Below are positions 43,235-53,067 of a stretch of 64,000 nt of DNA, one piece after another (the first letter of the stretch is position 1; each line of letters begins with the position of its first letter). The DNA lies in contig NZ_LT707064.1 in the NCBI RefSeq assembly GCF_900156465.1, forward strand, positions 2,136,001 through 2,200,000. The letters run 5' to 3'. The notes beneath the pieces were generated by a model. The model was not told the DNA's origin and searched no databases. It saw only the letters and a program-made list of their open reading frames with translations. Both the position numbers and the translations under genes were made by a program. The stretch is from Pseudomonas sp. 7SR1 (GTDB lineage: Bacteria > Pseudomonadota > Gammaproteobacteria > Pseudomonadales > Pseudomonadaceae).

Positions 43235-44383
43235 ATGAGTCTTTCCTCATTCAAGATCGCCCACAAACTGATCACCGGTGCCGCTGCCATCGAGCAACTG
43301 GCGGCCGAGCTGACACGGCTGGATGTCGACAACCCATTGATCGTCACCGACGCCGCGCTGGTCAAGTCCGGTACCGTGGAGCTGGCGCTGCAGCATCTGG
43401 GCGGGCGGGACTACGAGATTTTCGACCGGGTGCTGCCGGACCCGGAAATCGCCATTGTCAAAGACTGCATGCAGGCCTATCGCGACGGCGGCCATGACGG
43501 CTTGATCGGGCTGGGCGGCGGCAGCGCCATCGACATCGCCAAGTGCGTGGGGGTCTATGCCGGTTATCACGGCGAACTGGAGGACATGTTCGGCGTCGAC
43601 CAGGTACCGCGCAAAGGCCCGCCCATGATCGCCATCCCCACCACGGCCGGTACCGGTTCGGAAGTCACCAACGTGGCGATCCTTTCCGACAAGGCCGCTC
43701 AATTGAAGAAAGGGATCGTCAGCGACTACCTGCTGCCGGACGTGGCGCTGGTCAGCCCGCAGATGACCCTCACGTGCCCGCGCAGCGTGACCGCTTCCAG
43801 TGGTGTCGATGCGCTGGTCCACGCCATCGAGTCGTATCTGTCCCTCAACGCCTCGCCGATCACCGATGCCCTGGCCATCGGAGCTATCAAGCTGATCACC
43901 CGGGCGTTGCCCAAGGCCTTCTGTAATCCTTCCCACCTGCAAGCCCGTGAAGACATGGCTACCGCCAGCCTGATGGCCGGCATGGCGTTCGGCAATGCCG
44001 GGGTCGGAGCGGTGCATGCGCTGGCCTATCCCTTGGGCGGCCGTTTCCATGTGTCCCATGGCGTCGCCAATGCCTTGCTGCTGCCGTATGTCATGGCATG
44101 GAACAAGGTGGCCTGCGTCGAGCGGATGCGGGACATCGCCCAGGCCATGGGCATCAGGACCGAACACCTGAGCGATCTCGAAGCTGCCGACGAAGCCGTG
44201 GAGGCGATGATCGCCTTGTGTGCCGCCGTGGAGATCCCCCAGGGACTCAGCGGATTGGGCGTGACCGAGGATGTGATCCCCTCGATGGCGGCGGAGGCCG
44301 CGGGCATCGAGCGGCTGATGCGAAACAACCCGCGCAGGTTGAGCGCCGCCGATATCGAGAAGATCTACCTGGCGGCGTATTGA
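43235..44383 (+). CDS. Iron-containing (group III) alcohol dehydrogenase
   Basis: 382 residues. N-terminal Rossmann-like half with GLGGGSAIDIAKCV near 90 and PTTAGTGSEVTNVAI near 130. The C-terminal helical half carries metal ligands in SSGVDALVHAIESYL and AVHALAYPLGGRFHVSHGVA (two His). All typical motifs are intact, so it should be an active NAD(P)-dependent oxidoreductase; the substrate cannot be deduced. ATG 43235 (MSLSSFKIAHK) with AGAGG upstream; an upstream in-frame codon has no support. It lies between the agt operon and rpe. A link to hydroxy-acid or amino-acid-derived semialdehyde metabolism would fit the neighbourhood but is speculation. Confidence 0.88.
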   Translation: MSLSSFKIAHKLITGAAAIEQLAAELTRLDVDNPLIVTDAALVKSGTVELALQHLGGRDYEIFDRVLPDPEIAIVKDCMQAYRDGGHDGLIGLGGGSAIDIAKCVGVYAGYHGELEDMFGVDQVPRKGPPMIAIPTTAGTGSEVTNVAILSDKAAQLKKGIVSDYLLPDVALVSPQMTLTCPRSVTASSGVDALVHAIESYLSLNASPITDALAIGAIKLITRALPKAFCNPSHLQAREDMATASLMAGMAFGNAGVGAVHALAYPLGGRFHVSHGVANALLLPYVMAWNKVACVERMRDIAQAMGIRTEHLSDLEAADEAVEAMIALCAAVEIPQGLSGLGVTEDVIPSMAAEAAGIERLMRNNPRRLSAADIEKIYLAAY

Positions 44384-44461
44384 TCGTCGGCCACGGTGGG
44401 CGCGCCAAATCTTGAGGTATACAATGCGCGCCATCGTGGTTTCGCTCAAAACAGGTGCGTC

Positions 44462-45136
44462 ATGCAGCCCTTCGCTATTGCTCCGTCGATTCTTTCTGCC
44501 GACTTCGCCCGCCTGGGCGAGGAAGTGGACAACGTGCTGGCCGCCGGGGCCGACATCGTTCACTTCGATGTCATGGATAACCACTATGTGCCTAACCTGA
44601 CCATCGGTCCGATGGTCTGTTCGGCGCTGCGCAAGTACGGCATCACCGCGCCCATCGACGCGCACCTGATGGTCAGCCCGGTGGATCGCATCGTGGGCGA
44701 CTTCATCGAGGCCGGCGCTACCTACATCACTTTCCACCCTGAAGCCACCCTGCATATCGACCGCTCCTTGCAGTTGATCCGTGAAGGTGGCTGCAAGGCC
44801 GGCCTGGTGTTCAACCCGGCCACGCCCCTGGACGTGCTCAAATACGTGATGGACAAGGTCGACATGATCCTGCTCATGAGCGTCAACCCAGGCTTCGGCG
44901 GGCAGAAGTTCATCCCGGCCACCCTCGACAAGCTGCGCGAAGCCCGCGCACTGATCGATGCCTCGGGCCGTGACATCCGCCTGGAAATCGATGGCGGCGT
45001 GAATGTGGGCAACATCCGCGAAATCGCCGCGGCCGGTGCCGACACCTTTGTCGCAGGATCGGCGATCTTCAATGCGCCGGACTACAAAGAGGTGATTGAA
45101 AAGATGCGTGCCGAACTGGCCCTGGCACGCCCATGA
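44462..45136 (+). CDS. rpe: Ribulose-phosphate 3-epimerase
   Basis: Interconverts ribulose 5-phosphate and xylulose 5-phosphate (pentose phosphate pathway). 224-residue TIM barrel with both family signatures: [13 protein letters not shown] near 35 and [15 protein letters not shown] near 140, plus [15 protein letters not shown] 44462 chosen by homology ([15 protein letters not shown]). Overlaps gph by 4 bases; the rpe-gph-trpE order is the same in P. aeruginosa. Confidence 0.97.
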
Positions 45137-45951
45137 GCGGCTTCGAGCAGTTGTTTCCCGGCAGCTTGCCGCGTCTGGTGATGTTCGACCTCGATGGCAC
45201 GCTGGTCGACTCGGTTCCAGACCTGGCGGCAGCCGTGGACCATATGCTGCTCAAACTGGGGCGCGCGCCAGCCGGTATCGACGCCGTGCGCCAGTGGGTC
45301 GGTAATGGCGCCCCCATGCTGGTGCGCCGGGCCCTGGCCAATCACATCGACGCCCAGGGTGTCGATGACGCCGAGGCTGAGCAGGCGCTGGAGCTGTTCA
45401 ATGAAGCCTACGAGGGGAACCACGAATTGACGGTGGTCTATCCCGGCGTGCGCTCCACTCTCAAGTGGCTGCAAAAGCAGGGCGTCGAAATGGCGCTGAT
45501 CACCAACAAGCCGGAACGCTTCGTTGCGCCGTTACTGGATCAGATGAAGATCGGCCGCTATTTCCGCTGGATCATTGGCGGCGATACGCTGCCGCAGAAA
45601 AAGCCTGATCCGGCCGCGCTGTTTTTCGTCATGAAGATGGCCAATATCCCGGCTTCCCAATCGCTCTTCGTCGGCGATTCGCGCAGCGATGTGCTGGCAG
45701 CGAAAGCGGCGGGGGTCAAATGCGTGGCGCTGAGCTATGGCTACAATCATGGACGGCCCATCTCCGAAGAGTTCCCCGCCCTGGTGATCGACGATTTGCG
45801 ACTGCTAATTCCCGGTTGCCTGGACCCGGCCGCTGAGATAACGTTGCCCGACGCTGTTCAATCCTCTTCTGGGAACGCCATCGTGGTGGTCACTCGCAAA
45901 CTCTGGATGAAAGTCATGAAGGCCCTGGCCCGTTGGCGTTGGCGCGCCTGA
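45133..45951 (+). CDS. gph: Phosphoglycolate phosphatase
   Basis: HAD-superfamily enzyme removing phosphate from 2-phosphoglycolate, a by-product of DNA repair and oxidative metabolism. 272 residues: motif [13 protein letters not shown] near 17, motif II ITNKPE near 120, motif III Lys in QKKPDPAAL and motif [13 protein letters not shown] near 180. The last 25 or so residues (to [16 protein letters not shown]) lie beyond the HAD fold and end in a Trp/Arg run. That run doubles as a likely trp leader peptide for the downstream trpE. Overlaps rpe by ATGA. Confidence 0.94.
45907..45951 (+). promoter_or_regulatory. Probable trpE leader peptide coding region inside gph 3' end
   Basis: In frame with gph, an internal ATG at 45907 would give [14 protein letters not shown] then stop; another internal ATG at 45916 gives a shorter form. 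The final 24 bases are identical to the end of the trpGDC leader at 49697-49720. Two Trp codons separated by one Arg codon just before a stop and a hairpin are the hallmark of transcription attenuation. This has been reported for both trpE and trpGDC in P. putida (dependence on miaA tRNA modification). Whether the leader is read as the gph tail or started internally is unknown; no strong Shine-Dalgarno precedes either ATG. Confidence 0.7.
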
Positions 45952-45961
45952 CGTGATCCTG

Positions 45962-45975
45962 GCCGGTTATCCGGC
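45962..45975 (+). promoter_or_regulatory. Attenuator-type hairpin upstream of trpE
   Basis: GCCGG-TTAT-CCGGC stem-loop 10 bases after the leader stop, followed by GTGTTTGC. Together with the Trp codons upstream it is the visible part of the attenuation structure; trpE begins 47 bases later. The alternative antiterminator pairing was not resolved by eye. Confidence 0.5.
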
Positions 45976-46022
45976 GTGTTTGCATACCTGACTTCCAGCT
46001 CCTCTTGCCACGAGGCACCCTC

Positions 46023-47504
46023 ATGATTCGCGAAGAATTCCTGCGCCTGGCTGCTGCCGGCTATAACCGCATTCCCCTTGCCTGCGAAACCCTGGCTGAC
46101 TTCGACACGCCGCTGTCGATCTACCTCAAGCTGGCCGACCAGCCCAATTCCTACCTGCTCGAATCGGTACAGGGCGGGGAGAAGTGGGGCCGTTATTCCA
46201 TCATCGGCCTGCCATGCCGCACAGTGCTGCGGGTGCACGACCATCGCATCAGCGTGGCCCATGACGGCATCGAGATCGAAAGCCTCGAAGTCGAGGACCC
46301 GCTGGCCTTCGTCGAAACCTTCAAGGCCCGTTACAACGTACCCACCATCCCAGGGCTGCCGCGTTTCAACGGTGGCCTGGTGGGGTACTTTGGCTACGAC
46401 TGCGTGCGTTACGTGGAAAAGCGCCTGGGCACCTGCCCGAACCCGGATCCATTGGGCGTGCCGGACATCCTGCTGATGGTGTCCGATGCGGTGGTGGTCT
46501 TCGATAACCTCGCAGGTAAAATGCACGCTATCGTGCTGGCCGACCCGTCCCAGGAAGATGCCTACGAGCAAGGCCTGCAAAGCTTGCAGGCGTTGTTGGA
46601 AAAACTTCGCCAGCCGATCACGCCACGCCCTGGCCTGGACTTCAGCAAGCAGGCCGCGGCCGACCCGGTATTTCGCTCCAGCTTTACCCAGGACGATTAT
46701 GAAAAAGCGGTCGATACCATCAAGGAATACATCCTGGCTGGCGACTGCATGCAGGTGGTGCCGTCGCAACGGATGTCCATCGACTTCAAGGCAGCGCCTA
46801 TCGATCTGTATAGAGCCCTGCGTTGCTTCAATCCGACGCCCTACATGTACTTCTTCAATTTTGGCGATTTCCATGTCGTGGGCAGTTCGCCGGAAGTATT
46901 GGTGCGGGTCGAGGACAACCTGATCACGGTTCGACCGATTGCCGGCACGCGTCCTCGTGGTGCCACGGAAGAGGCTGACCGCGCCCTGGAAGAGGACCTG
47001 CTGTCGGACGCCAAGGAGATCGCCGAGCACCTGATGCTGATCGACCTGGGGCGTAACGACACCGGGCGGGTCTCGGAAGTCGGTTCGGTGAGGCTCACCG
47101 AGAAGATGGTGATCGAGCGCTATTCCAACGTCATGCACATCGTGTCCAACGTCACGGGGCAGTTGAAGGCCGGGTTGACGGCAATGGATGCCCTGCGAGC
47201 GATCCTGCCCGCAGGCACCTTGTCTGGCGCGCCGAAGATTCGGGCGATGGAAATCATCGATGAGCTGGAGCCGGTCAAGCGGGGGGTGTACGGCGGAGCC
47301 GTCGGCTATTTCGCCTGGAACGGCAACATGGACACTGCCATTGCCATTCGCACGGCAGTCATCAAGAACGGCGAACTGCATGTACAGGCCGGAGGAGGTA
47401 TCGTTGCCGATTCGGTACCGGCGCTGGAATGGGAAGAAACGCTGAACAAGCGTCGGGCGATGTTCCGCGCGGTGGCGTTGGCCGAGCAGGCCCCGAACGA
47501 CTGA
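46023..47504 (+). CDS. trpE: Anthranilate synthase component I
   Basis: Makes anthranilate from chorismate with ammonia supplied by TrpG; first committed step of tryptophan synthesis. 493 residues: the N-terminal feedback-inhibition segment includes [20 protein letters not shown] (the LLES motif binds tryptophan). The catalytic C-terminal domain has [35 protein letters not shown] and [23 protein letters not shown] 46023 with GAGG upstream; the frame extends six codons further. 71 bases after gph, under attenuation control by the preceding leader. Confidence 0.97.
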
Positions 47505-47512
47505 AACCCTTC

Positions 47513-47552
47513 ATGCCTATGGTGAGCAGACAAGCTTGCTCACCATAGGCAT
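47513..47552. terminator. Bidirectional hairpin between trpE and estP
   Basis: Perfect 16-bp stem (ATGCCTATGGTGAGCA with TGCTCACCATAGGCAT) and 8-base loop in the 63-bp gap between two converging genes. No T tract follows on either strand. The loop-proximal words AGCA/TGCT resemble REP hairpins, so it could be an extragenic palindrome acting as terminator for both genes. Confidence 0.72.
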
Positions 47553-47567
47553 CTGCGGTTCATCGAA

Positions 47568-49472
47568 TCAGAAGTCCAGGCTGACCCCGAGACTTATCCC
47601 TTGCTGGGTGAAGTCGTCATCCTTGCGCAACGTATAACCCCCTCTCAACGCCAGCTCGCTGGTCAACTTGTGGCTGACCCCCAGGCTCAGGCGATTCAGG
47701 TGGCTCTGTGGCGTATAGCCTTCCAGCGTGAAGTCATTGGCTGGCAGGCTGTTGAGGGCGATATTGACCTTTTGCATGTCGTCTTCATACTCGCGCTCGT
47801 GGGCGTATTCGCCATACACCTGGGTCTGACGGGTAAAGTTGTATTTACCTTGCAGACCGATACCCAGGCGTTTCGAGTCGCGGGTCTGGTCGTCGAAGGT
47901 CAGGGCCGTGGAGCGGCTGCCCTTTTCCGAATAGCCGTCGACTTCCACCCTCGCATAATCGGCACTGACGAAGGGTGACAGGTGCCAGGCGCTGCCCGGC
48001 TGGGCGATGTCGTAGCCTACGCGGGTACTGAATGCCCAGAGATGCCCGTCGGTGTCGCCTTTCTCCTGGGCTTCGTTGACGCCCAGTTGGAATTTGCGCT
48101 CCAGGTTGTCGTAGTCGAGCTTGCCACCGGTCAGCGCCGCATCGGCCCACCAGCGGCTCTGCTGGAACTGGGCGAAAGCGGTGGCCAGGTAGCTGTTGAG
48201 CTTGTAGTCCGAATCGTTGTCACCAGCCTCCATGTCCTGGCGGTAGAGCCCAGCGGCGATGCCCACGCGCCAGGCCTCGTTGAGGCGATAGCTGCCACCT
48301 ACGTTGAGGCTGTAGCCGCTGCCGTCGGCGCTGGCACCGCTGCCCTGGCTGTCCACGTCGAGATGCTGTCCACCGCCGTTGACGATGGCTCGCCACTGAC
48401 CGACCGCTTGCCAATCTTCCCAATCCGACTGCCATTGGCTGCGCAGCTCGTCCTGGTGGGCCCGTAGAGTCGAATGGGCCATTTCCGGCAGCAGCGTCAG
48501 TTCCCACGGTGCCGCGAGTAGGGAGAAGGCGTAGTCGGCGATCAGCTTCTGCCCGGCCTCGGTGGGGTGGACGGAGTCGTTGTAGATCAGTTTGCTGGGG
48601 TCGGGTGTTGCGCTGTTGATGCCGTAGGTGGGGTTTTCCGTGCAGCCATTGCCGCTGAAGCAGGTTGCCGTGAGATTCTCGCCGGTGGCGAGGCCGAAAC
48701 GCGCGGGATCGGCGAAGCTTTCTCGAAGCAGCAAAGGAATGTTCAGCGGAATGACCTCGGCGTCGATACCTTGCAGTCGCGCGACGAGCTGTTGGTTGAA
48801 GTCGTTGCTCAGTTGCGACACGGCGCCCTGCAAAGGTGTGCCGTTGAGGGCGGGGGTCAGTCCCAAGTCCGGCAGCAGCCAGACCATCACATAGCGGGCG
48901 CCCGCTGTTTGCAGCACCTGGACGCTGTTGGCCAGGCGGTCCGCCGCAGCCTGGGCCTGAGCCGTGGTCAACACCAGACCCTGGAGAAAGTCGTTGCCGC
49001 CACCGGAGAGGTAATACAGCGCATTCGGATCGGCGCGCCGCCCGTTGGCCAGGTATCCGGGACGGCTGCGTTCTCCAGTATCGGAAACACTGGTGATCGA
49101 ATCGAGGATCTGGTCGGTGCGGTAACCGCCCACTGCCCAGTTGTTGCCGTCCGCCAAGCCCTCGTTGGCACGCACCGCGGAGGTGGAGGCGGCGGTTTCG
49201 TCGGCGGAGAAGCCCAGGCGCCCGCCCAGCAGTTGGGTGGAATTGGCGGAATACGCCTCGCCACTGCCATCCTGGTAGAGCGGGCCGGTGCGGTTGGTGA
49301 AACGCTGGGTTGACCCTGCCGGTCCATTCGGGTCGGTGAACTGGCCTGCGTCGTTGAGGCTGTCGCCAAAGACAATGAAGCTGGAGTAAGGGGTTGGAGC
49401 GGCACTCGCCTGGGCGCAGGCCATCGCGAGCACACAACTGGCAACCGGTACGAACAGCGTTTTCCTGATCAT
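47568..49472 (-). CDS. estP: GDSL esterase autotransporter EstP/EstA
   Basis: Outer-membrane-anchored esterase, 634 residues. Signal peptide ending ASA, N-terminal GDSL passenger with nucleophile Ser in [13 protein letters not shown] near 38, block III GGGNDF, and catalytic Asp/His in [11 protein letters not shown] near 320. Then an autotransporter beta-barrel of about 280 residues ends in LGVSLDF with the terminal Phe typical of barrel insertion. In P. aeruginosa EstA affects rhamnolipid production and motility; in P. putida the estP gene also lies beside trpE and trpG, as I remember. ATG 49472 has AAGGA upstream. Convergent with trpE. Confidence 0.94.
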
Positions 49473-49633
49473 GAGAAGGTCCTTTTCGATCTTATTTTTG
49501 TTAGAAAACGAAACGACAGTACCAAAAACTCTTGGCGCTCGACCATCCATCAGTGGCATTGCGTTTGTTTCAAAGCCCTTCGGGGTTGGTCATATTGCGC
49601 GCTCTGTTCAGCTAGGCTACTGTGCCGGAACGT

Positions 49634-49720
49634 ATGAACGAGACTTCCCCTGTGTCGATTGTCAGCAAGCTTCCGGATCAAATGATCAAGGCACACGCCC
49701 GTTGGCGTTGGCGCGCCTGA
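49634..49720 (+). CDS. trp leader peptide (attenuation) for trpGDC
   Basis: Short free-standing frame of 28 codons, MNETSPVSIVSKLPDQMIKA followed by HARWRWRA and TGA. The two Trp codons lie 3 and 5 codons before the stop. The last 24 bases are identical to the end of gph upstream of trpE, although the preceding sequence differs. It is followed by a small hairpin CCGGC-TGT-GCCGG at 49731-49743 and a larger terminator-like stem at 49803-49835. Its translation would sense charged tRNA-Trp. A free-standing ATG with CCGGAACGT before it gives only a modest ribosome site. Confidence 0.8.
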   Translation: MNETSPVSIVSKLPDQMIKAHARWRWRA

Positions 49721-49802
49721 ATATTCCCTGCCGGCTGTGCCGGACCTGTACCGATTTGCCTTCTTTACCTGCTTGAAAGCCGCTTCGCTGGTGCATCACA
49801 TG

Positions 49803-49835
49803 CCCGCCAAGCGCAACACCGCGCGGGTTTCTCTT
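49803..49835 (+). terminator. Candidate attenuator terminator upstream of trpG
   Basis: CCCGC (49803-49807) can pair with GCGGG (49823-49827), with an alternative GCGC/GCGC inner stem, followed by TTTCTCTT. Position, between the Trp leader and trpG, suits the terminator of an attenuation switch. The stem is short, so this is a reading by eye that RNA folding should test. Confidence 0.5.
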
Positions 49836-49881
49836 GAAGGCTTTAATTAAAAGTCAGTGAATTCAAAAGGTTGCTTACGCC

Positions 49882-50475
49882 ATGTTGCTGATGATCGATA
49901 ACTACGACTCCTTTACCTACAACGTTGTGCAATACCTGGGCGAGCTGGGCTCCGAGGTACGAGTCGTGCGCAACGACGAACTGACCATCGCCGAAATCGA
50001 AGCGCTCAAACCCGAACGGATCGTGGTATCCCCCGGCCCGTGCACGCCGACCGAAGCGGGTGTATCCATCGAAGCCATCAAGTATTTCGCTGGCAAGCTG
50101 CCCATCCTGGGGGTCTGCCTGGGCCATCAGTCCATCGGCCAAGCCTTCGGTGGCGACGTGGTGCGTGCCCGGCAAGTCATGCACGGTAAGACTAGCCCGG
50201 TATTCCACGAGGACAAGGGTGTATTCGAAGGGTTGAACCGGCCGCTCACCGTCACCCGCTACCACTCCCTGATCGTCAAGCGCGAAACGCTGCCCGACTG
50301 TCTGGAAGTGACCGCCTGGACCCAGCTCGAAGACGGTTCGGTGGACGAAATCATGGGGCTGCGCCACAAGACATTGAATATAGAGGGTGTGCAATTTCAT
50401 CCCGAGTCTATTCTCACCGAACAGGGTCACGAGCTGTTCGCCAACTTCCTCAAACAAACCGGCGGCACGCGCTAA
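49882..50475 (+). CDS. trpG: Anthranilate synthase component II (glutamine amidotransferase)
   Basis: Supplies ammonia from glutamine to TrpE. 197-residue class I amidotransferase with [11 protein letters not shown], nucleophile Cys in [11 protein letters not shown] near residue 79 and catalytic His-Glu in GVQFHPES near 170. Pseudomonas also have PqsB-type or pabA homologues, but adjacency to trpD and trpC settles the call. First gene of trpGDC. Confidence 0.96.
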
Positions 50476-50484
50476 GGACTTTTC

Positions 50485-51534
50485 ATGGATATCAAGACAG
50501 CCCTGAGCCGTATCGTCGGTCATCTCGACCTGAGCACCGACGAGATGCGTGATGTGATGCGCGAAATCATGACCGGCCAATGCACCGACGCACAGATTGG
50601 CGCGTTCATGATGGCCATGCGCATGAAGAGCGAGAGCATCGATGAAATCGTCGGCGCGGTCTCGGTCATGCGCGAGCTGGCGGACAAGGTCGAGCTCAAG
50701 ACCTTGGATGGCGTGGTGGATGTGGTTGGCACCGGCGGCGACGGCGCCAATATCTTCAACGTATCCACTGCCTCGGCGTTCGTCGTCGCGGCCGCCGGCT
50801 GCACCGTGGCCAAGCACGGCAATCGTGCGGTCTCGGGCAAGAGCGGAAGTGCCGATCTGTTGGAGGCGGCCGGTATCTACTTGAACCTCACGCCGGTCCA
50901 GGTGGCACGCTGCATCGATAATGTCGGTATTGGCTTCATGTTCGCCCAGACTCATCACAGCGCCATGAAACATGCTGCCGCACCACGTCGTGACCTGGGC
51001 CTGCGCACCCTGTTCAACATGCTTGGCCCGCTTACGAATCCGGCCGGCGTGAAACACCAGGTGGTCGGAGTGTTCAGCCAGGCGCTGTGCCGGCCGTTGG
51101 CGGAGGTTCTGCAGCGTCTGGGCAGCAAGCACGTATTGGTGGTCCATTCCAAGGACGGCCTCGATGAGTTCAGCCTGGCGGCGCCTACTTATGTGGCTGA
51201 ACTAAAGAATGATCAGATCAGCGAATACTGGGTCGAACCTGAAGACCTGGGCATGAAGAGCCAGAGCTTGCACGGTCTGGCGGTGGATGGGCCGGCGCAG
51301 TCGCTGGAACTGATTCGCGATGCCCTGGGACGTCGCAAGACCGAGAATGGCCAGAAGGCCGCCGAAATGATCGTGCTCAACGCTGGCGCTGCTCTATACG
51401 CCGCCGACCACGCCAGTACGCTCAAGCAGGGGGTGGAGTTGGCCCATGATGCCTTGCACACTGGCCTGGCTCGGGAAAAGCTCGAAGAGTTGGGTGCATT
51501 TACCGCTGTATTCAAAGTGGAGAACGAAGGATGA
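50485..51534 (+). CDS. trpD: Anthranilate phosphoribosyltransferase
   Basis: Joins anthranilate to PRPP. 349 residues with [20 protein letters not shown] near 75 (PRPP and anthranilate binding), [19 protein letters not shown] and the anthranilate-binding region [13 protein letters not shown]. Begins 9 bases after trpG and overlaps trpC by ATGA. Confidence 0.97.
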
Positions 51535-52367
51535 GCGTGCCAACGGTTCTGGAAAAAATCCTGGCTCGCAAGGCTGAGGAAGTGGCCGAGCGCAGTGCCC
51601 GGGTCAGTCTGGCCGAGCTGGAAAACCTGGCACGTTCGGCTGATGCTCCCCGTGGCTTCGCCAAGGCACTGATCGACCAGGCGAAGAAAAAGCAGCCGGC
51701 GGTGATTGCCGAGATCAAGAAGGCGTCCCCCAGCAAGGGCGTGATCCGTGAACACTTCGTCCCGGCCGACATCGCCAAAAGCTACGAGAAGGGTGGGGCG
51801 ACCTGCCTCTCGGTGCTCACCGATATCGATTTTTTCCAAGGCGCCGACGACTACCTCAAGCAGGCGCGTGCTGCGTGCAATCTGCCAGTCATCCGCAAGG
51901 ATTTCATGATCGATCCGTACCAGATCGTCGAGGCTCGAGCGTTGGGCGCCGATTGCGTGCTGTTGATCGTCTCCGCCCTGGACGACGTGAAAATGGCCGA
52001 ACTGGCGGCTGTCGCCAAGGGTGTGGGGCTGGATGTACTGGTAGAGGTGCATGACGGCGAGGAATTGGAGCGGGCCTTGAAAACCCTGGATACCAGGCTG
52101 GTGGGCGTGAACAATCGAAACCTGCATACCTTCGAAGTCAGCCTGGAAACGACCCTGGACCTGCTGCCCCGCATTCCCCGTGATCGGCTGGTCATTACCG
52201 AGAGCGGTATTCTCAACCGGGCCGACGTCGAGCTGATGGAAGTCAACGACGTCTACTCGTTCCTGGTAGGTGAGGCATTCATGCGGGCCGAAAGCCCGGG
52301 TACGGAGTTGCAACGCCTGTTCTTTCCAGAGCGGGGCGTTCCGGTGAGCGGCTCGACGCTTGATTGA
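51531..52367 (+). CDS. trpC: Indole-3-glycerol phosphate synthase
   Basis: Ring closure of CdRP to indole-3-glycerol phosphate. 278-residue TIM barrel: [15 protein letters not shown] (catalytic Lys) near 55, [13 protein letters not shown] near 115, [13 protein letters not shown] and [12 protein letters not shown]. Monofunctional, without TrpF fusion, as usual in Pseudomonas. Confidence 0.97.
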
Positions 52368-52371
52368 GCCG

Positions 52372-53067
52372 ATGGCTCCGGTGATCGCCCTGACCGTTGA
52401 AGCCGGTCTCCAAGCCGAGCAGGACTTGTTGGCCAGTGTCTGTGCCGGCGATGCCGAGTTCGGCCTGCTGTTCTGGCGGCCCAGCGACCGCGCGTTGGTC
52501 ATGCCGCGCCGTCTGGCCCGCTTGTCGGGATTCGAGTACGCCTGTGAGGTCTCGGCTGCCAGTGGCTGGCCGGTGCTGCTGCGCGAAACCGGGGGCGAAC
52601 CGGTGCCGCAGTCGGCCGCTACCGTCAATATCGCCCTGGTTTATGCACCTCCACGTAGCGAGGGCGATCATGGCCGGATCGAAACTGCCTATCGTCGGTT
52701 GTGTGATCCCATTTGCCAGTTGTTGGACGAACTGGGCGGAGTGGCATCGCTAGGGGAGGTGGACGGGGCGTTTTGCGACGGTCGGTTCAACGTCAATCTC
52801 GACGGCCGTAAAATGGTTGGCACCGCTCAACGCTGGCGCCAGAGCAAGGGCGGACAGCGCCCCGTAGGCCTGGTACACGGGGCGTTGCTAGTGGATAACG
52901 AGCGCGAATCGATGGTTGCCGCGGTCAACCGCTTCAATGAAGCCTGCGGCCTGGAACAACGGGTACGGGCTGAGAGCCACATCGCCCTGCATGAAAAATT
53001 TTCCGACCCTCACGCGCTGGAGCGGCTTGAGGCGCTTTATCGGAATCTGGCGGACGAGCTGTTCTAG
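52372..53067 (+). CDS. Lipoate-protein ligase/octanoyltransferase family protein (BPL/LplA/LipB fold)
   Basis: 231 residues. Shows the two hallmarks of LplA-type enzymes: a RxTGGxPVPQ segment ([20 protein letters not shown]) and the lysine-containing motif [11 protein letters not shown] followed by HGALLVDN. It is shorter than bona fide LplA, with no clear adenylate-accepting C-terminal domain, so octanoyl/lipoyl transfer by a LipM/LipL-like mechanism or degenerate function are alternatives. ATG 52372 lies 4 bases after trpC; a TTG start 12 bases earlier would overlap trpC. Co-transcription with trpGDC is likely. Its stop shares a CTAG with that of vfr on the other strand. Confidence 0.75.

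Follow-up and report, generated by a model that had tools for sequence, protein, structure and literature searches.

The window analysed here, a stretch of 64,000 nucleotides from Pseudomonas sp. 7SR1, carries two genes of tryptophan (Trp) synthesis on the + strand, trpE (46023–47504; TIGR00564, 572.5 bits) and trpG (49882–50475; NF006462, 354 bits, cut-off 345). They are separated by an insert with estP, an autotransporter esterase gene on the − strand (47568–49472; NF041609, 1141 bits). Upstream of trpE and of trpG lies a short open reading frame (ORF) whose 3′ end is one and the same 24-base block, GCCCGTTGGCGTTGGCGCGCCTGA, at 45928–45951 and 49697–49720 (+ strand). The two copies are identical at 24 of 24 positions and encode Ala-Arg-Trp-Arg-Trp-Arg-Ala-stop, exactly as a first-pass annotation of the sequence had it. 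The small GC hairpin that it had described after each leader was found at 45962–45975 (hairpin H) and 49731–49743, in neither case with a U-tract, and is followed by the start codon of trpE (ATG 46023) or trpG (ATG 49882). The trpG leader was also matched by a covariance model of trpE leaders (52.8 bits, E = 9.5e-11).

The trpE leader ORF is nested in the 3′ end of the gph gene, of which it forms the final 22 codons in the same frame. Its start had earlier been placed at ATG 45907, which now appears less likely. Both leader ORFs have a purine-rich, Shine–Dalgarno-like sequence and an in-frame GTG upstream, the GTG being present, by eye, in relatives as well. The leaders therefore probably start at GTG 45883 and GTG 49652, with 22 codons each (45883–45951 and 49652–49720, + strand; the latter MSIVSKLPDQMIKAHARWRWRA), although the in-frame ATG 49634 is an alternative start for the trpG leader. 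In the trpE leader the putative Shine–Dalgarno sequence, picked out by eye, is GGGAA at 45871–45875 (+ strand), often AGAGA in relatives, and the Trp codons are numbers 8, 18 and 20. A GTG start agrees with P. aeruginosa, where RNA 3′ ends in the trpGDC leader lie beside a potential GTG-started ORF, according to an extract of that study (PMC8297930).

Of 298 genomes in the window's genus, 276 matched a degenerate ARWRWRA-stop pattern and none matched its reversal; thus, the motif does not occur by chance, and the earlier assignment of Trp leaders to both operons is supported. TrpE was recovered from 106 of the 109 family genomes searched, with all 19 genera represented. Among 40 family loci picked by hand across genera from these 106 matches, RWRWR lies upstream of trpE in 35 (those without it are L179, L191, L192, L201 and L206); the trpE leaders at L191 and L192, both from genus g118, are variants reading WHRWRCCA and WHRWRYCA. 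The Pseudomonas loci had been drawn by leader presence (the double-match genomes among the matches listed, plus 22 of about 40 single-match genomes). In a second set, made up of the best 80 TrpE matches and free of leader bias, every one of the 80 genomes carried the trpE leader. When 194 genomes of the order were searched with a covariance model of 22 family sequences, under filters that lose weak matches, 8 gave a match, and these 8 all belong to the window's family. At one locus in another family (L169, genome G399) we noted a possible trpE leader that ends in ERWRWRA with other wobble bases and is separated from gph by stop codons.

The leader is constrained at synonymous positions as well. 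Across the genus, mean synonymous diversity was 0.11 in the leader codons versus 0.26 in the upstream gph codons. Nearly all variation in the 24-base block consists of C/T exchanges at the wobble base of the first and second Arg codons, while outside it leader codons 3 and 4 vary (0.33 and 0.42). The Arg codons are conserved and, among the matches listed, almost always CGC or CGT, with one CGA at three codons in 78 loci; the last leader residue varies (A, P, T or I) within one genus. In 45 of 54 trpE leader representatives the proximal Trp codon is codon 8; three have it at codon 9, 12 or 13, and six lack it. Together with the covarying helices described below, the lower synonymous diversity supports the suggestion of the first-pass annotation that selection acts on the RNA and not on the peptide alone.

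The presence of a second leader is linked to the parting of trpG from trpE. Both motifs are found at 52 split loci among the 75 of the genus that have both genes; the 19 adjoining loci have only the motif of trpE, and at the remaining 4, also split, one of the two sides has a variant motif. Across the family, a leader precedes trpG at 67 of 70 split loci versus 0 of 42 adjoining ones. The corresponding counts in the TrpE-selected set were 37 of 38 and 0 of 31, with 11 of the 80 loci not judgeable, and 35 of 36 and 0 of 30 after removal of three loci shared with the first set. The adjoining loci L182 and L209 were scored 0, the motif being inside the trpE coding sequence, and such motifs were also excluded for adjoining loci in the second set; states were entered by hand for nine loci, and G537, G549 and G558, which have trpE and trpG on different contigs, were counted as split. 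A TrpE tree, from which three short TrpE rows were dropped and in which three of 115 rows had no state, showed 17 changes of arrangement. It yielded 10 independent pairs on supported branches, of which 8.8 on average were concordant and none ever ran in the opposite direction (median p = 0.004).

The distance between the two genes varies widely. It was measured at 56 split loci of the genus, where it ranges from 3763 to 4069 bases, and an estP-like ORF was seen by eye in three inserts viewed; elsewhere in the genus it is 1947 bases at L284, and in G113 and G192 the leaders are separated by about 9 kb and by 22 kb, respectively. Other genera have different cargo between trpE and trpG, with gaps of 2.4 to about 48 kb. 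At L217 and L219 (G583 and G572) the distance is about 45–48 kb and the second leader is present, and in G018 (L113 and L114) contig coordinates place the two genes about 4.5 Mb from each other, on opposite strands, each with a leader of its own. No trpG leader was found at the split loci L215, L223, L226 (genera g127, g120 and g114) and L295, which are useful natural exceptions. One record, titled Pantoea sp. Cy-639 (L301), has a Pseudomonas-type trpE and both leaders and is probably misnamed. In P. syringae, tailocin loci are reported, in an extract of PMC12208367, to be adjacent to trpG and trpE. Among the literature matches listed, from a search that left subscription literature mostly outside, there was no paper on the link between second leader and split or on the fold of the trpE leader.

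Most of 50 trpE leader folds share, by eye, one nested shape, and the leader start region forms 11.2 expected pairs on average with the trpE start region (54 representatives). In the window, the outermost predicted helix, P1, pairs 45877–45887 in the leader start region with 46007–46016, which contains the trpE Shine–Dalgarno sequence GAGG (46012–46015), and is backed by both the window fold and covariation. P2, predicted from the fold only, pairs GGUCA at 45888–45892 with UGACU at 45989–45993, and P3, for which there is covariation, pairs GCAAAC at 45896–45901 with GUUUGC at 45978–45983 (all + strand). Inside P3 lie P4/P5, which enclose Trp codons, and hairpin H, the arms of which vary in concert, an observation that is partly circular in that the window was chosen by folding. 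This nested fold, in which the ribosome-binding sites of leader and trpE are predicted to pair with each other, has covariation support across 17–18 genera.

The helices were evaluated by a permutation test that used one sequence per genus and permuted the partners among 18 genera. P1 in its native combination was equalled by only 2 of 8000 permutations and P3 by 3 of 8000, compared with 2627 and 1541 of 8000 for two non-cognate control pairings; for P4/P5 the count was 5 of 6000, and for P1 without five divergent genera it was 21 of 6000. Arms that change in concert include GCACAG/CUGUGC, CACACAC/GUGUGUG and GCAAGC/GCUUGC in P3, and GGAUCAAAC/GUUUGAUUC and GGGUCAAAC/GUUUGACCC in P1. In an alignment of 22 sequences on the given structure, 80.1% of cells were paired versus 76.9% after shuffling, and the covariation score was 0.134 versus 0.095, with 0 of 500 shuffles as high in either case; controls in which the structure was slid had 33–43% paired. 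A best-single-helix search between the two ends yielded no more than a small excess over swapped partners for trpE (18.9 versus 17.9). Folding and covariation thus support a model in which the trpE Shine–Dalgarno sequence is sequestered by leader RNA through P1. The refuting condition set in the first-pass annotation concerned alternative stem pairings; the helices do covary across genera, but they are mutually compatible, and no alternative pairings were found in a search that was not exhaustive.

We give an even chance to the interpretation that these elements work by ribosome-mediated Trp attenuation in which most of the control is over access to the trpE start site. Both would be Trp sensors of common origin, consisting of a short ORF that ends in RWRWRA-stop followed by a GC hairpin. 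When Trp is plentiful, ribosomes would clear the leader and the nested fold would close, so that the leader start region pairs with the trpE Shine–Dalgarno sequence and trpE is left untranslated. When Trp is short, ribosomes held at the leader Trp codons would keep the fold open, and trpE would be made. Once parted from trpE by an insert, trpG would need a sensor of its own, which we propose as the reason why the trpG copy of the leader exists, wired to trpG by other RNA contacts. A wider generalization, which we hold somewhat less probable than not, is that the leaders form a family-wide class of amino-acid attenuator in which the leader's ribosome-binding site is antisense to that of the gene, occupancy of the leader rather than a terminator sets trpE, and the split has repeatedly been tied to a second sensor.

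The step by which Trp would be sensed was approached with a static footprint calculation, in which a ribosome was masked in the equilibrium fold of the trpE leader. A ribosome on the leader start freed the trpE Shine–Dalgarno sequence (0.40 unpaired versus 0.23). The calculation agrees with the model only partly, and we therefore regard the fold and the occlusion of the start site as supported, while the direction of regulation, the stalling of ribosomes, the translational level of control and the need for a second sensor are what we infer.

Several results weigh against the interpretation. With the ribosome masked at W8, W18 or W20, the trpE Shine–Dalgarno sequence was 0.22–0.23 unpaired versus 0.23 without a ribosome, and a queue of ribosomes behind W18 gave 0.25, which is no release. 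Without the five divergent genera, support for P3 weakened to 181 of 6000 permutations. In the 22-sequence alignment, pairs changed on both sides numbered 7 versus 4.3 after shuffling (38 of 500 as high) and further pair types 20 versus 18.0 (96 of 500), and one slid control reached 8 pairs changed on both sides. The helices were picked after the folds had been viewed, so that the tests bear on covariation and not on blind prediction. Folding energy was unremarkable for the trpE leader (z = −1.13) and for the trpG leader (z = −0.05); neither value is significant, and folding energy was dropped as evidence for structure. Pairing of the P1 or P3 type was not found in the trpG leader, although one of the tests had some start windows placed at an upstream ATG. 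Finally, there are split loci without a second leader, three in the first set (L215 of g127, G556 of g120 and G537 of g114) and one in the TrpE-selected set.

For the trpG leader, the best-single-helix search showed no excess over swapped partners (14.6 versus 16.0). Pairing of the stop codon and spacer with the start site was matched by 21 and 31 of 8000 permutations over 11 groups, where nine segment pairs had been tried without correction, and by 0 of 6000 over 22 clusters; the count rose to 1221 of 4000 when the window was changed. Tentatively, then, the end of the leader, its stop and the spacer may contact the trpG start region. Two other candidate pairings were set aside. That between leader codons 1–8 and the RWRW codons was matched by 1 of 6000 permutations over 22 clusters but by 1851 of 8000 over 11 groups, and that between the post-hairpin and pre-start segments (0 of 6000; 15 of 8000) was discounted as the windows overlap in short leaders.

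We considered the possibility that both leaders act by classical or Rho-dependent transcription attenuation, in which translation of the leader sets whether the polymerase stops within it and the fold at the start site is secondary. This alternative survives best, although we regard it as rather unlikely. Attenuation of these operons is already in print, both trp operons of P. putida being reportedly regulated in this way, as the title of Olekhnovich and Gussin 2001 has it. By eye, the leader region of trpG, which is long, looks rich in pyrimidines. According to the extract of PMC8297930, the 3′ ends in the P. aeruginosa trpGDC leader rose above the cut-off of that study only in azithromycin-treated biofilms. 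On the other side, there is no conserved U-tract after either hairpin. A scan of 45700–50000 found no terminator-like site on the + strand, and even a permissive rule found one in only 7 of 113 trpE and 5 of 63 trpG leaders. An intrinsic terminator behind the leaders was therefore rejected as not conserved. Furthermore, no mutually exclusive pair of helices turned up in the non-exhaustive search, and the covarying P1 covers the trpE Shine–Dalgarno sequence. The first-pass annotation had regarded the mechanism as the known one of attenuation; Trp leaders on both operons are supported, but plain attenuation is doubtful without a conserved terminator and with compatible helices that occlude the trpE start.

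Whether arginine supply also counts had been asked as well. Conserved Arg codons alternate with the Trp codons, which would fit joint sensing of both amino acids; on the other side stands the near-exclusive use of CGC and CGT noted above. We consider joint sensing improbable. Marginally less probable still is that the motif is kept for its peptide, with RWRWRA acting as an arrest peptide or in trans and the Arg residues mattering as residues. The persistence of RWRWR before trpE in 35 of the 40 family loci would fit, as would the ERWRWRA ending with different wobble bases in the other family, which was found by searching for RWRW, and a trans-acting Trp leader peptide is described in Sinorhizobium (extract of PMC7298713). 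However, the last residue is variable, the g118 leaders depart from the motif, and the wobble bases are constrained too.

The first-pass annotation had further proposed that the perfect conservation of the twins, synonymous positions included, might reflect recent gene conversion. Identity holds in the window but not as a rule: at the wobble bases, 26 of 54 twin pairs are identical and 28 differ. The 26 identical pairs slightly exceed the 20.1 expected by shuffling (p = 0.02, relatedness ignored). The window's own wobble state, T,T in both twins, occurs in 6 of 54 pairs, the window counted. Most trpG leaders across genera share the sequence KAHARWRWRA, unlike most trpE leaders, with exceptions in G113 and genus g3. 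Since variation is largely confined to C/T at two wobble positions and more than half of the pairs are discordant, gene conversion is not needed, and it was rejected, along with recent duplication, as the source of the identity. A phage or transposon repeat was rejected as well: a target-site duplication would not be expected to enclose trpE together with the insert, each copy inside a leader ORF, as these do. That the twins are direct repeats left by an insertion, or are kept alike by gene conversion, is thus largely refuted and very improbable, even though they lie on either side of trpE plus insert and, in the window, do not differ. The sequences fit best with a common origin of the twins and separate later histories.

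The gph ORF (45133–45951, + strand) reads, after about residue 224, through a promoter-like region and then the leader. In 75 of 78 genus loci the frame stays open over all codons that were checked (as many as 60). Six of its codons, GGT, TGC, GAG, ATA, ACG and TTG, show zero synonymous variation in the 47–72 of 78 loci that keep each residue, and GGT TGC and GAG ATA ACG TTG make up a promoter-like pair within the gph tail, TTGCCT-17-TAACGT. This predicted trpE promoter (45816–45844, + strand) rests on likeness to the consensus and had no scan match; the motif recurs at one spacing in 67 of 113 leaders. A possible promoter of the trpG leader, TTGCGC-17-TACTGT (49595–49623, + strand), was seen by eye, again with no scan match. 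Conservation is poor in the part of the gph product that separates the promoter-like region from the leader. The NCBIfam model NF009698 for Gph covers residues 1–272 of 272 and so takes in the promoter-like region and the Trp leader peptide as a C-terminal tail, while the shorter NF009695 match stops at residue 224. From this analysis, the final ~48 residues annotated in Pseudomonas Gph seem to be, for the most part, regulatory DNA read as protein.

If our interpretation is correct, one family has rebuilt a textbook principle of regulation, trp attenuation, at the step of translation initiation. The family would also offer a natural experiment, with a sensor on both pieces where the operon is cut in two and on one where the pieces adjoin. 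Each helix can be tested directly with a few base changes.

In the E. coli trpL attenuator, trpE is preceded by a short leader ORF in which Trp codons cluster and an Arg codon also occurs. The leader here resembles it in being a short ORF with clustered Trp codons and Arg upstream of trpE, and differs in lacking a conserved intrinsic terminator and in having covarying helices that are compatible with one another and predicted to occlude the trpE start site. Nor do the leaders match curated Rfam families such as Trp_leader: a search of 44000–53000 gave no family match at the leaders, its one match elsewhere, IS1222_FSE (E = 0.79), being below the gathering score. The two operons are the same, in the same genus, as those of the P. 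putida trpE/trpGDC attenuation named in the title of Olekhnovich and Gussin 2001. As in Sinorhizobium trpL/rnTrpL, a Trp leader goes with trp genes in more than one operon; however, the system there is, in the extract of PMC7298713, terminator-based, and the leader small RNA acts in trans to destabilise the trpDC mRNA, whereas here the second operon has its own leader. In the erm/cat-type translational attenuators, translation of a leader ORF decides whether the downstream Shine–Dalgarno sequence is free. Prediction and covariation point to the same kind of sequestration by leader RNA in trpE, and tentatively in trpG, but the signal here would be an amino acid, and the partner of the Shine–Dalgarno sequence would be the leader's own start region.

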